Under the pieces are notes generated by a model that saw nothing but the letters and a program-made list of their open reading frames with translations, was not told the DNA's origin and did no database searches. From positions 1-21,547 of the IMG/VR virus record IMGVR_UViG_3300038424_000050: DNA of 21,547 nt. The stretch is one strand, 5' to 3'. A program made the translations under genes and the position numbers. The DNA is from a virus. Below are positions 5,890 through 20,691 of the stretch, one piece after another (position 1 is the stretch's first letter; every line of letters starts with the position of its first letter).

Positions 5890-6381
5890 CTACTTGAATT
5901 TGCTTAAGTATGCCACGGCCTGAAACGGCCAATACGGTGTTTCTTCAACGCTATGGAGCGCGTGATTGCAGAGGCGGCAAAGAAGTCCACGAACTTTTCC
6001 ACTAGCGTGATCATGGTCTATTGCCAAGCTAACCACCCGTCCATTCTGATGGGTCGCCGTTTCCGGTTTCCCACATATTGCACAAACGCCATTCTGTTCG
6101 GCCAGCGTCTGCTCATACCATTCAAGCGGTTTCCCGAATTTCTTAAGCGTCTTGCGCCGTTCTGAATCTTGAAAGTAGCCTACAACCCGTTTCCGCTGCT
6201 TCCGATGCCATTCAGCCCGGTATTTGTCCTGCTTTTCCTTGTGGGCCGCATAATAGGCCCGATTAATTGCATCCTGACAAGTCTTGCAATAAACCTGCCT
6301 GCCATCACTCGTGATCCTGTTCTTAAAGAAATCCTCTAACGGCTTTTCCTTAGAACATTTCTTGCAAATCTTTGTTTCCAT
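5890..6381 (-). CDS. Endonuclease VII-like HNH nuclease, probably free-standing homing type
   Basis: This 163-aa protein has an N-terminal zinc site (Cys6, Cys9, Cys32, Cys35), a basic helical linker (about 40-90), and a C-terminal endonuclease VII type HNH core. The core has Cys100/Cys103, then LAIDHDHASGKVRGLLC with Asp122-His123-Asp124-His125, Cys135/Cys138 and Asn139. In this family the two Cys pairs bind zinc and the DHDH...N residues form the beta-beta-alpha-metal active site. T4 gp49 is the Holliday-junction-resolving member; many relatives in phages behave as mobile free-standing nucleases. The ATG follows AGAGGG. It separates the capsid gene from the GroES-like gene, has its own candidate promoter, and looks more AT-rich than its neighbours. 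These traits fit a selfish insertion; a resolvase used in packaging is the alternative. Confidence 0.88.
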   Translation of the reverse strand: METKICKKCSKEKPLEDFFKNRITSDGRQVYCKTCQDAINRAYYAAHKEKQDKYRAEWHRKQRKRVVGYFQDSERRKTLKKFGKPLEWYEQTLAEQNGVCAICGKPETATHQNGRVVSLAIDHDHASGKVRGLLCRLCNHALHSVEETPYWPFQAVAYLSKFK

Positions 6382-9765: not shown

Positions 9766-9894
9766 TTAGTGGAATTTCACCTTGATTGCCTTGACTGCGC
9801 CGGCATTCGGCACTTTCAACTCGATTTTCTTCTTGTCAGCGCCCTTTTTGAGCGCAAAAACGCTGTGTGGTTCAGATTTCTTGCCGTCTTTCAT
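9766..9894 (-). CDS. 42-aa basic small protein between phosphatase and scaffold genes
   Basis: A short frame encodes MKDGKKSEPHSVFALKKGAD... and ends ...AVKAIKVKFH. Its ATG overlaps the stop of the phosphatase gene in a TGATG junction, and GGGGG lies 6 nt upstream inside the end of that gene. The product is Lys-rich (about one quarter Lys) with alternating beta-like segments (KKIELKV; AVKAIKVKF). It fills an otherwise empty 150-nt gap in an operon with almost no gaps, which supports it being real. No family is recognised. A nucleic acid or capsid-interior role would suit its charge but is a guess. Confidence 0.65.
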   Translation of the reverse strand: MKDGKKSEPHSVFALKKGADKKKIELKVPNAGAVKAIKVKFH

Positions 9895-10514
9895 CAGCTA
9901 CCCCCAAATACTGCCTGTTCGGTCTGCCCGAACATGGGTTCCAGGCGATGCCCCTTGCCATCCCAGTAAATTGCGCCCACTCCGCCCGGCTTTACGCTCT
10001 CGCCAAGCTCTGGTTCGATCTCTTCCATGCCCTGAGTGAAATTCTCAAGCGCCGTAACGTTCGACGTATGCGCAACATAGAGCGTCAGACCCTCATTTCT
10101 CGCCATTTCCAGCGCAGCCTTCCAGAAAGCGTACTGGCGATCTTCAAAATCGCTCAATGACTCGCCTTCGGGCACACAGACGTTGGGATTCTGCACAAAA
10201 AGTCGAAGCGCCGGCTGATATTCGTCCTTCGAGAGCCCGGTAAAGATGCCCAGACGCCAGGGAAAGAGCCCGCGATGCTGCTTTACCATCAATCCATGGG
10301 GCGCGGCCGCGAAATCGGCAGTCACGAATGCCCGGAGCAGCGGCGAACTGATTACATGCTGGATTTTGAACTGTTTGAGGAAGCGGGCCGCGGCGATCGC
10401 TTGCTGTGTCCCTTCGTCATTCAGCGGCGGATCGCTCCATGAACGAAACAAGCCCTCCCGGTTGGCTGCCGTCTCGCCATGACGCAATATCAGGCCGATC
10501 ATCTGCTCTGCCAT
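9894..10514 (-). CDS. Histidine phosphatase superfamily (phosphoglycerate-mutase-like) protein
   Basis: This 206-aa protein opens with LILRHGET (catalytic His12 within RHG, residues 11-13). The family blocks follow in order: LNDEGTQQA (31-39), SSPLLRA with Arg61, PEGES (115-119) and AHTSN with His149. His12 would take the phosphate, with Arg11, Arg61 and His149 forming the phosphate pocket. All core residues are present, so the enzyme should be active. The substrate (sugar phosphate, nucleotide or phosphoprotein) cannot be told. Length fits single-domain members. No signal peptide is seen, so it acts in the cytoplasm or within particles. The ATG follows AGGAGACC. It lies 7 nt after the portal gene and overlaps the following 42-aa gene, so it is co-expressed with head genes, an unusual place for such an enzyme. 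Confidence 0.88.
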   Translation of the reverse strand: MAEQMIGLILRHGETAANREGLFRSWSDPPLNDEGTQQAIAAARFLKQFKIQHVISSPLLRAFVTADFAAAPHGLMVKQHRGLFPWRLGIFTGLSKDEYQPALRLFVQNPNVCVPEGESLSDFEDRQYAFWKAALEMARNEGLTLYVAHTSNVTALENFTQGMEEIEPELGESVKPGGVGAIYWDGKGHRLEPMFGQTEQAVFGGS

Positions 10515-17403: not shown

Positions 17404-18086
17404 TTTGCCCCTTTCATTTCTGCCGCGCACATTCCTAGATGCAGATCCCCAGTCTCTGCCAGCACCGGCAGTTGCCGCCCACCCGCTGACTTCCACCACT
17501 CAAGCTCAGCCCCGCAAACCGAGCAAGCCCGCTTATTGGAAAACGTATAACCGTCCGCTATCATCTCGGCTTTGTTTTTGGGGAGGGCCGGAGAGGGAAG
17601 GATACCGTGACTGATAGACAAAAGGGAAGAAAAGTCTCCGTTTCGCTTGCCGTTACCGGAGTTGGCAGAGCGTCTGTTCTCCTCTCCTCTGTTTCTTATC
17701 TGTTCTGTTCTCCTCTCCTCTAGGGCGTTACACTTTGTTACATCAAATGTTTCATCCCGTTTCTGTAACGTTTCAGACTGTTTCTCACCGCGTCTATGGC
17801 GGCGAACACGCTCAGTTGAAGAATCTGAGATGAATTGACGCTTATTCCAGTTGAGAAGATTCCAGTTTTCATCGATAAAGCCATTTTCAACGAAAAGAGC
17901 CTTCGTTCGGGCCACTTCGTCGAGGCTCACACACCACTTGAAAGATTGTTGAGAATCCGTGCGTTTTTCCTCTTTGCATCGCTGGCAAAACAGGAGGACG
18001 AGGCGGCGCTGGTCAACCTCGGACATCATCTGGACTTTGGGATCATCTTCAAATTCCGAATAAAACCGAAACCACGGATTTGCCAT
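17400..18086 (-). CDS. Phage replication organizer-like protein with C-terminal zinc site
   Basis: This 228-aa protein starts MANPWFRFYSEFEDDPKVQM at the ATG at 18086, 3 nt after AAGGGG; the frame is open to 18233 but without support. The N-terminal 90 residues (DQRRLVLLFCQRCKEE; SLDEVARTKALFVENGFID; LNWNKRQFISDSSTERVRRHR) match the winged-helix part of phage replisome organizer/DnaD-like proteins, which bind the origin and recruit helicase or loader. The middle (about 100-155) is charged and low complexity (EERRTEQIRNRGEENRR), and its DNA carries iteron-like repeats. The end has Cys188, Cys191, His216 and Cys220, a likely zinc site. It is the first clear gene of the replication part and overlaps the next gene by 4 nt. 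Helicase recruitment is family-based inference. Confidence 0.75.
   Translation of the reverse strand: MANPWFRFYSEFEDDPKVQMMSEVDQRRLVLLFCQRCKEEKRTDSQQSFKWCVSLDEVARTKALFVENGFIDENWNLLNWNKRQFISDSSTERVRRHRRGEKQSETLQKRDETFDVTKCNALEERRTEQIRNRGEENRRSANSGNGKRNGDFSSLLSISHGILPSPALPKNKAEMIADGYTFSNKRACSVCGAELEWWKSAGGRQLPVLAETGDLHLGMCAAEMKGAK
17674..17784. repeat. Iteron-like direct repeats inside the replication gene
   Basis: The plus strand carries two identical 17-mers CTGTTCTCCTCTCCTCT at 17674-17690 and 17705-17721, 31 bp apart. Next to them GTTTC occurs four times at 17749, 17759, 17770 and 17780, spaced 10, 11 and 10 bp, about one helical turn each. The region between is AT-rich (TACACTTTGTTACATCAAATG). 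The 31-bp spacing is not a multiple of three, so the 17-mers are read in different frames and are not a protein repeat. Phased repeats plus an AT-rich stretch inside a replication gene are the layout of lambda's ori within gene O. Confidence 0.5.
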
Positions 18087-18245: not shown

Positions 18246-18761
18246 TCATCCCCACACCTCACCAAAATCAAAGACTTCCTGGCTCAGCCGTTTGGCGGCT
18301 AACGTATGGCAAACTGTTTCGTGCAGAATGGGCAAACCACATAGCCCCGATGAATGCCTTTGGTGACGATGGCAAGATTTTCTATCCTGTTGTCGCTCTT
18401 GATAGCGTTCCGATGATGGACGTTTTCCCACGCATAGAGGGGACGGCCTAGAAAGTCGGCCATTACCATCCGGTGTTCTGCGACCATGCCGCTTGAGTTC
18501 GCGTTTGGATGATCGGGCTTCTTGTGCCAAATGTAGCCGTTCTTGTCTACCTGCCTGCCGCCCTTCCAACATGGCGAATCTTCCCCTTTCCGGTTCGAGC
18601 GCGAACGCGCGAGCCTGGTGAAGTTCCGCTGCTTGCTTCCAATTCCGCGAGATTGCGGCCAGTTCCGCGCCGTGCTCAGGCCACAATGCCGCTTTACCAA
18701 TCAGATACGCCTGCTGCTCCCCGCAGAACCGCGCCCACCACTTGTGACCGGCTGCGTCCAT
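18246..18761 (-). other. Open frame overlapping the HNH gene; possible interrupted phage gene
   Basis: A 171-codon frame begins MDAAGHKWWARFCGEQQAYL and reads as sensible helical protein for about 60 residues (KAALWPEHGAELAAISRNWK). It then turns into Arg/Ser/His-rich sequence where the HNH core is encoded in the other frame, and ends again plausibly with AAKRLSQEVFDFGEVWG. The stop overlaps an ATG (ATGA). The protein-like frame also continues upstream of the ATG (AFDFEPAPPV). The pattern fits an older gene split by insertion of the HNH endonuclease, with the frame staying open by chance. Alternatively only the N-terminal part is real, overlapping the HNH start. Low confidence that the full 171 aa is a functional protein. 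Confidence 0.3.
18299..18700 (-). CDS. HNH endonuclease (homing-type)
   Basis: The C-terminal 95 residues are a classic small phage HNH nuclease. KGEDSPCWKGGRQVDKNGYI (38-57) is the usual entry motif, EHRMVM supplies Glu75-His76, ENVHHRN has His95-His96-Asn98, and SDNRIENL has Asp103-Asn104-Asn108. A final CPFC may bind zinc. These residues form the beta-beta-alpha-metal site that nicks or cuts DNA; relatives spread as homing endonucleases. The start is uncertain: the frame opens at a TTG (18700) with no ribosome site, and the first 37 residues lack the CxxC segment that relatives often have. The gene lies across another open frame that resumes behind it, suggesting insertion into a gene. Confidence 0.7.
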   Translation of the reverse strand: MVKRHCGLSTARNWPQSRGIGSKQRNFTRLARSRSNRKGEDSPCWKGGRQVDKNGYIWHKKPDHPNANSSGMVAEHRMVMADFLGRPLYAWENVHHRNAIKSDNRIENLAIVTKGIHRGYVVCPFCTKQFAIR

Positions 18762-19773: not shown

Positions 19774-20691
19774 GTGAGTAGATCGACAATCAGCACTTTC
19801 AAACTGTTTCAGATGTTTCCCGATGAGGAGTCGGCCAGAACTTACCTTGAGAGCCGTCTCTGGCCTAAAGGTGTCACCTGCCCAACCTGTGCCGGTCGGG
19901 ATCGCATCACACCCCGTAAGGCTGGCTTCCACCGCTGCAACAAGTGCCAGATTGATTTCACGATTCGCACCGGAACCATCTTTGAGCGTTCGCATATCCC
20001 GCTGCACAAGTGGCTCTATGCCATGTACTTGCTCGTGACCGCCCGGAAGGGAATCTCTTCCATGCAGATCGCCAAGGAAATCGGCGTACAGCAGAAATCG
20101 GCATGGTTTATGCTTCACCGGCTCCGTGAGGCTTGCGGAACGGAACTGGCGAAACTGCAAGGTGTTGTGGAGGTCGATGAGGCGTTCTTTGGTGGCAAGG
20201 AAGCGAACAAGCACGAATCCAAGAAGCTGAATGCAGGCCGTGGCTCTGTCGGCAAGGTTGCCGTCGTGGGACTCAGGGAGCGCGGCGGTAGGGTAATCGC
20301 CCACCCGGTTCCCAACACCGACAAGGAAGCCTTGCAGGGCGCGATTATGGAGCACGTTGAAATCGGCTCTCAACTCATGACTGACGAGGCTACGGGATAC
20401 AGCGGCATCGGCGGTCTTTTCTTCGACCATGACACCGTGGCGCATTCGGCTGGCGAGTACAAGCGTGGCCATGTCCACACAAACGGAATTGAGTCTGTCT
20501 GGGCAGTGATGAAGCGCGGAATGCACGGCGTCTACCACCACGCCAGCCCGAAGCACCTTCACCGCTACGTTGATGAGTTCACCTTCCGCCTGAATGAAGG
20601 CGACGTGAAACGGCACACCCTTGACCGGCTGGACTCGTTCATTGACGCGGTTGACGGCAAGCGCCTGACATATGCGAGGTTGATTCAATGA
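19774..20691 (+). CDS. IS1595/ISXO2-family transposase
   Basis: This 305-aa protein starts at a GTG with GAGG about 11 nt upstream. The N-terminal zinc ribbon has Cys36, Cys39, Cys55 and Cys58 (CPTCAGRD...HRCNKC), followed by DFTIRTGTIFERSHIPLHKW. This is the entry of the ISXO2-like transposases. A helix-turn-helix (about 93-118, ISSMQIAKEIGVQQKSAW) comes next. The DDE-type core has Asp135 in VEVDEAFFGGK, Asp204 in LMTDEATGY and HTNGIESVWAVMKRG with Asn237/Glu240. The end SPKHLHRYVDEFTFRLNE is also typical. The protein appears complete. I found no terminal inverted repeats within about 150 bp on either side, so it may be an IS with distant or degenerate ends, or a gene fixed in the phage. Its stop overlaps the next small gene by 4 nt. 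Confidence 0.93.
   Translation: MSRSTISTFKLFQMFPDEESARTYLESRLWPKGVTCPTCAGRDRITPRKAGFHRCNKCQIDFTIRTGTIFERSHIPLHKWLYAMYLLVTARKGISSMQIAKEIGVQQKSAWFMLHRLREACGTELAKLQGVVEVDEAFFGGKEANKHESKKLNAGRGSVGKVAVVGLRERGGRVIAHPVPNTDKEALQGAIMEHVEIGSQLMTDEATGYSGIGGLFFDHDTVAHSAGEYKRGHVHTNGIESVWAVMKRGMHGVYHHASPKHLHRYVDEFTFRLNEGDVKRHTLDRLDSFIDAVDGKRLTYARLIQ

Follow-up and report, generated by a model that had tools for sequence, protein, structure and literature searches.

A probable phage replication origin within the gene of its own initiator, with a box sequence predicted by one residue of the encoded protein

In a 21.5-kb virus fragment (21,547 nucleotides, hereafter the window), we identified a segment that is very probably a phage replication origin lying within the gene of its own initiator, in which short boxes would be bound, an adjoining tract opened and a helicase loaded. 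The coding (minus) strand of the segment reads GAAACAGTCTGAAACGTTACAGAAACGGGATGAAACATTTGATGTAACAAAGTGTAACGCCCT, then AGAGGAGAGGAGAACAGAACAGATAAGAAACAGAGGAGAGGAGAACAGA. It is best read as a lambda-type intragenic origin with an initiator that lacks detectable lambda O homology, direct binding, opening, helicase loading and replication being steps that we infer. The initial annotation had already proposed a lambda-like origin embedded in an initiator gene, and this idea is now supported by boxes and a tract that occur in all reading frames, by their persistence past the end of the open reading frame (ORF), and by co-variation between a protein residue and the box sequence.

The gene, P0001 (17,400-18,086, minus strand), encodes a replication protein of 228 amino acids, shares an ATGA overlap with the next ORF and has the terminase genes directly downstream. 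Its product matched PHROG 10469 (DnaD-like helicase loader; E = 5.5e-11, residues 2-139) and PHROG 3926 (replication initiation protein; E = 9.3e-9), and the strand of the gene is here corrected to minus. The PHROG 10469 match is an N-terminal winged-helix match that spans only family positions 6-171 of 305, and the C-terminal part of the family is unmatched in P0001. Neither the PHROG O-like families ("replication initiation O-like") nor Pfam (whole protein) nor NCBIfam gave a match, and nothing in a viral structure library had an E value below 0.001.

In the AlphaFold2 model, P0001 is laid out as an N-terminal winged helix, a linker that encodes the putative origin, and a C-terminal predicted zinc ribbon. 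The winged-helix domain (residues 1-83; 17,838-18,086, minus strand) was modelled with a pLDDT of about 87-98 over most of its length and has winged helix-turn-helix structural matches. These include the plasmid Rep initiators of RepA_N type 4pql, 5kbj and 4pt7 (residues 1-83, Z 7.4-7.5, rmsd 3.9-4.0, 79 residues), which tie with many unrelated winged helices, and no sequence relation between P0001 and plasmid Rep proteins was found. After the winged helix comes a predicted basic helix (residues 89-110, SSTERVRRHR...; 17,757-17,822, minus strand), our proposed recognition helix on the basis of the model and of a column scan described below, and AlphaFold places V94 (codon at 17,805-17,807, minus strand) within it. 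The linker was modelled with low confidence. The zinc-ribbon-like domain (CSVC...C, residues 170-225; 17,412-17,579, minus strand) stands in place of the C-terminal domains of relatives; we found no relatives of it in viral contigs or NCBIfam, and a recognisable helicase-loading C-terminal domain is absent from P0001. No helicase gene was recognised among the ORFs scanned in this 21.5-kb fragment.

Several other genes in the window were also recorded. An HNH endonuclease gene (18,299-18,700, minus strand; PHROG 9e-24) lies directly upstream of P0001, and an IS1595/ISXO2-family transposase gene (19,774-20,691, plus strand; Pfam 3e-46) lies near the end of the virus fragment. A gene resembling recombination endonuclease VII (5,890-6,381, minus strand) sits among the structural genes, and an ORF at 9,894-10,514 (minus strand), starting MAEQMIGLILRHGETAANREG, has an RHGE motif that makes it a possible histidine phosphatase, which would be unusual between phage structural genes.

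The array inside the initiator gene consists of six phased G[A/T]AAC boxes on the minus strand, spaced by 10, 11, 10, 12 and 10 bp. In coding order these are GAAAC (17,780-17,784), GAAAC(G) (17,770-17,774), GAAAC(G) (17,759-17,763), GAAAC (17,749-17,753), GTAAC (17,737-17,741) and GTAAC(G) (17,727-17,731), the last of which directly precedes the tract, as a final box commonly does in relatives too. The four GTTTC boxes at 10-11-10 bp that were originally reported are thus real, being minus-strand GAAAC starts at 17,784, 17,774, 17,763 and 17,753, and two GTTAC boxes (minus-strand GTAAC, starting at 17,741 and 17,731) bring the number to six. The first boxes encode the second half of the predicted basic helix. 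Chains of at least four G[AT]AAC boxes did not occur in any of 300 dinucleotide shuffles of the window, and when P0001 was recoded synonymously so that the protein was kept, the six-box chain arose in 3 of 20,000 recodings and four phased GAAAC boxes in 115 of 20,000. The array is 64% AT, which places it in the top 0.8%, whereas the window as a whole has 43.5%. An AT-rich part exists as annotated, but it is the box array itself and not a stretch surrounded by repeats and boxes, the repeat tract being only 51% AT.

Next to the array lies a strand-asymmetric purine tract (AGAGGAGAGGAGAACAGAACAGATAAGAAACAGAGGAGAGGAGAACAGA; 17,673-17,721, minus strand), the proposed region of unwinding or single-strand loading, whose purine/pyrimidine asymmetry falls in the top 0.04% of windows and whose autocorrelation is strongest at 5 bp. 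It holds two copies of the repeat TCTGTTCTCCTCTCCTCT (17,673-17,690 and 17,704-17,721). The initial annotation gave these as two identical 17-bp repeats 31 bp apart; the offset of 31 holds and the length is 18 bp. The two copies do not share a frame, their translations being LEERRTE and RGEENRR. No 18-mer was repeated within 60 bp in 300 dinucleotide shuffles of the window, and the longest such repeat in 3000 synonymous recodings of P0001 was 12. The tract is built of pentamer or hexamer units, GAGGA here and CAGAA or CAGATA in relatives. Since CAGAA and CAGATA units fill the same place in relatives while the boxes persist, the 18-bp repeats are ruled out as iterons. Rather, and unlike the earlier assignment, the boxes are the iterons and the repeats are part of the adjoining asymmetric tract. 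The earlier argument that a change of frame implies conservation at the DNA level is strong for the boxes but carries little weight for a perfect pentamer tract, whose translation is QNRTE whatever the frame.

We collected relatives with an N-domain scan (residues 1-98) that was blind to the repeats, yielding 80 viral loci out of 265 matches and 30 loci from bacterial genomes. Absence of the repeats from close relatives had been named at the outset as a check; the relatives were found to have phased boxes and an asymmetric tract in the corresponding position, with all three frames represented, and do not refute the proposal. Linker statistics were taken from 84 distinct linkers of relatives selected by the N-domain only. 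Per 150 nt, these linkers contain 4.0 G[AT]AAC boxes and the remainder of the same genes 0.86, an enrichment of about five-fold, and the box starts are spread over the three frames (98/125/113). Spacing is 10 or 11 bp in 203 of 253 cases and exactly 11 bp in 185 of 253. Linker codons are skewed to ACA, GAT, CAG, AGA and GTA (p down to 1e-40), that is, toward the letters of the tract (ACA 0.67 vs 0.32, GAT 0.86 vs 0.49). The boxes are followed by CAGAA or CAGATA repeats in most relatives, so that the encoded peptide is QNRTE-like or DTDT-like, and 43 of 47 clusters fit a tract pattern.

The element also occurs where it is not translated. In four loci (L153, L180, L200 and L210) the ORF ends about 15 codons past a conserved SDxS motif, before any box, and the boxes and tract are still there; the DNA directly after the stop in this group reads, for example, GAAACGTTACAGAAACGGTTTTGTAACGCCCTAGAACAGAACAG. 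L152 and L221 have the module of boxes and tract downstream of the gene and inverted, and in L213 the DNA downstream of the gene contains a tract with GTGAC boxes. In two further initiators (L151 and L218) an HNH endonuclease domain is inserted between the helix and the boxes, at about codon 100, with boxes and tract resuming beyond it, and in L381 such a domain is apparently inserted after the helix. Selection acting on the peptide could not maintain this arrangement, as a DNA site could. Conservation of the candidate origin element is seen at the DNA level, whatever the frame and also where no frame is open.

Some of these loci merit a description of their own. The position of the HNH insertions in L151, L218 and L381 is what one would expect of a homing endonuclease directed at the putative origin. 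Past the stop of its 109-aa gene, L221, on a contig assigned to Acidobacteria, carries a run of units of about 22 bp (GTCACATGTGACGGTCAACTGTC), followed by GTGAC boxes with a CAGAA tract in inverted orientation, which would make it an enlarged, fully non-coding form of the putative origin. A distant relative (L450) on the 67-kb circular Bradyrhizobium elkanii plasmid pUSDA31-2, possibly a phage-plasmid, has RV, GAAAC/GTAAC boxes and only a degenerate tract.

The box sequence follows a single residue of the protein. The pattern was first noticed in the linker, where ...RVxxH... goes with GWAAC boxes and ...RTxxY... with GTGAC. Among 183 distinct genes, valine was found with GWAAC in 144 and without it in 1, threonine with GTGAC in 16, and serine with GCAAC in 3 and without it in 1. 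A held-out scan that used only residues 1-92 as query, and so was blind to residue 94 and to the boxes, returned 13 unseen genes, 12 of which carried the predicted box; the lone exception carries an HNH insertion. When all N-domain columns were scanned without bias, the V94 position came first with 0.736 of the 0.761 bits of box-class information, the next column reaching 0.44. The closest contrast is L141, which is 82% identical to the window protein over residues 1-90 and has threonine and GTGAC boxes.

Two further scans, which chose loci by box class beside a tract, added more diverse initiators. In the pooled set, valine went with GWAAC in 131 of 131 genes and serine with GCAAC in 14 of 14, while GTGAC went with threonine in 39, glutamine in 7, other residues in 3 and valine in none; in this count four genes caught by a single GCAAC box were scored as GWAAC by the majority of their boxes, and up to six mixed or non-replication matches were removed by hand. 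On a tree of the domain without the residue-94 region, the box class changed 8 times in the first set and 21 times in the pooled one. The switch to GTGAC could be followed in five independent pairs on well-supported branches, about 4 concordant and 0 discordant, and with so few switches the phylogenetic test alone falls short of significance. Judged from these comparisons, one residue (V94 here) predicts the box, with V for G[A/T]AAC, T and sometimes Q for GTGAC, and S for GCAAC. In a few relatives with RAKxWR (blind-scan loci L261, L262, L263, L311 and L316), alanine at this position seems to go with CGAACGC boxes as a fourth class.

Tracts were also searched for by themselves. When viral contigs were scanned blindly for (CAGAA)n and (GATACA)n, each search gave at least 120 matches, and among the matches listed 87 of 104 distinct places for the pentamer and 105 of 115 for the hexamer lie in sense near the middle of an ORF that is 150 residues or longer. 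Most of the proteins among these listed matches fit DnaD-like loader, replication initiation, O-like or primosomal families, with a few DUF1376 and DnaT, and a minority of matches lie in other genes such as methylases. Some of these genes have quite different boxes upstream of the tract, for example GCATATGC or TGTCGCGAC repeats. The CAGATA tract stood in the DT frame in 101 of 102 cases among the matches listed, a confinement indicating that peptide constraints act too. In complete Pseudomonas phages, the relative of P0001 is flanked by cII-like genes on one side and by a gene for a DnaB-like helicase on the other; the latter is annotated as helicase in three phages and as "hypothetical" at the same place in one. 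GC skew was uninformative, as its minimum in the window is at 18,740, about 1 kb from the candidate origin but in a fragment only, and its extremes in two complete relatives (PP9W and P54) lie 4.7 kb, 4.2 kb or further from the candidate origin and track gene direction. It was therefore dropped as an origin marker.

We hypothesize that the N-terminal winged helix and the basic helix 89-110, with V94 in it, would bind the six boxes at their near-helical phasing of 10-12 bp. The bound array may then bend or strain the DNA so that the strand-asymmetric tract beside it opens, one exposed strand of which would serve for loading the replicative helicase, in the manner of O at ori-lambda.

Other accounts of the same features appear far less probable. 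If the repeats reflected only selection on a low-complexity linker, a hydrophilic and disordered hinge (QNRTE, DTDT, EERR), then the low model confidence in the P0001 linker, the limitation of the hexamer to the DT frame and the reading of the pentamer as QNRTE in any frame would all be expected; boxes in all three frames at 11-bp spacing, skewed synonymous codons, box letters that follow residue 94, and boxes and tract that survive beyond a stop codon or away from the gene would not. We consider this account highly improbable, and as the sole cause it is ruled out by the frame spread and by the relatives with a stop before the boxes. It is very unlikely that the same protein binds the array for regulation, as an operator for autoregulation or repression, instead of initiation. 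The residue-box code shows recognition and not purpose, and winged helices are common in repressors, but the array is found inside the gene or 3' to it and not at its promoter, and it adjoins a strand-asymmetric tract like the arrays of lambda and P22. The protein families are those of replication initiators, and helicase genes follow in complete relatives.

We would hardly expect a partition (centromere-like) site or a site of recombination or packaging. Centromeres too are phased repeats beside the gene of their binding protein, yet P0001 matches replication families and not ParB. The C-terminal domains do differ after the tract, as they would at a recombination joint, but a mosaic joint is equally expected at a conserved origin. 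A replication origin within the initiator gene thus remains our preferred reading.

More broadly, we think it likely that this is a portable origin module that recurs across several phage initiator families and is read by the basic helix, with one residue setting the box (V for GAAAC/GTAAC, T or sometimes Q for GTGAC, S for GCAAC). Since the residue that confers recognition is encoded next to the sites it recognises, an origin and its specificity would be passed on as one unit, with exchange of the helicase-loading modules at the C-terminus. Odd phage peptides such as QNRTEQNRTE and DTDTDT would then be explained as a translated replication origin, and the tract with its boxes would offer a simple means of locating origins in the genomes of uncultured phages. 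Initiator-origin specificity, which determines the phages and prophages able to share replication or interfere with it, would further become predictable from sequence by the one-residue rule. An origin within a gene is already known, and the new part is the residue-box code and the tract common to initiator families. In the literature searched we found no description of the tract peptides or DNA, of intragenic origins in the family of P0001, or of this origin specificity, and no account of a one-residue code or of a tract common to several initiator families; this is weak evidence, as subscription papers were mostly outside the coverage.

Among known systems, the DnaD-like loaders and replication initiation proteins (PHROG 10469 and 3926) resemble P0001 over the N-domain and linker, although the predicted zinc ribbon at the C-terminus of P0001 sets it apart from PHROG 10469. 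These two families also account for most of the genes listed from the blind tract scans. Iteron plasmid origins likewise have helically phased iterons adjoining an opening region (PMC5043065), but the array here lies within coding sequence. The DnaA-trio / DnaD Recognition Element of B. subtilis is similar in having short one-strand repeats beside initiator boxes, proposed for strand-specific helicase recruitment (PMC10201434), but its unit is 3 where that of the tract is 5 or 6. The window has a TnnT count of 14, a value that same-composition shuffles reach in 7.4%, and the hexamer tract has no TnnT; with paired TnnT not beyond composition, we rejected this element as a general account of the tract.

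The closest parallels are the lambda ori and the origin in gene 18 of P22, where the repeats also lie within the initiator gene, between an N-terminal DNA-binding domain and a C-terminal part, and where iterons are likewise followed by a purine-asymmetric (A-rich), T-poor tract (PMC5043065, PMC7466680, PMC6022878). Lambda has four iterons in gene O, then ACACAAAAGACACTATTACAAAAGAAAAAAGAAAAGA, and P22 has iterons, then ACACAAAAGACAATATACAAAAGACAATAAATACAAATACC. The minimum for unwinding in lambda is two iterons plus the A-rich region, whose single strand O binds (PMC7466680), and in O itself a flexible linker connects the DNA-binding domain at the N-terminus to the domain that binds P at the C-terminus (PMC6022878). 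Lambda differs in its 18-bp, partly palindromic iterons about 20-24 bp apart, compared with cores of 5-6 bp about 11 bp apart here, in that the tract here is built of pentamers or hexamers and is not AT-rich (51%), and in the O family, to which P0001 has no match. The complete relatives nevertheless match the lambda order of cII, O and P with their cII-like, initiator and DnaB-like genes. Given iterons and a tract as in lambda and P22 together with this lambda-like gene order, the system probably works like ori-lambda, despite an initiator from outside the O family.
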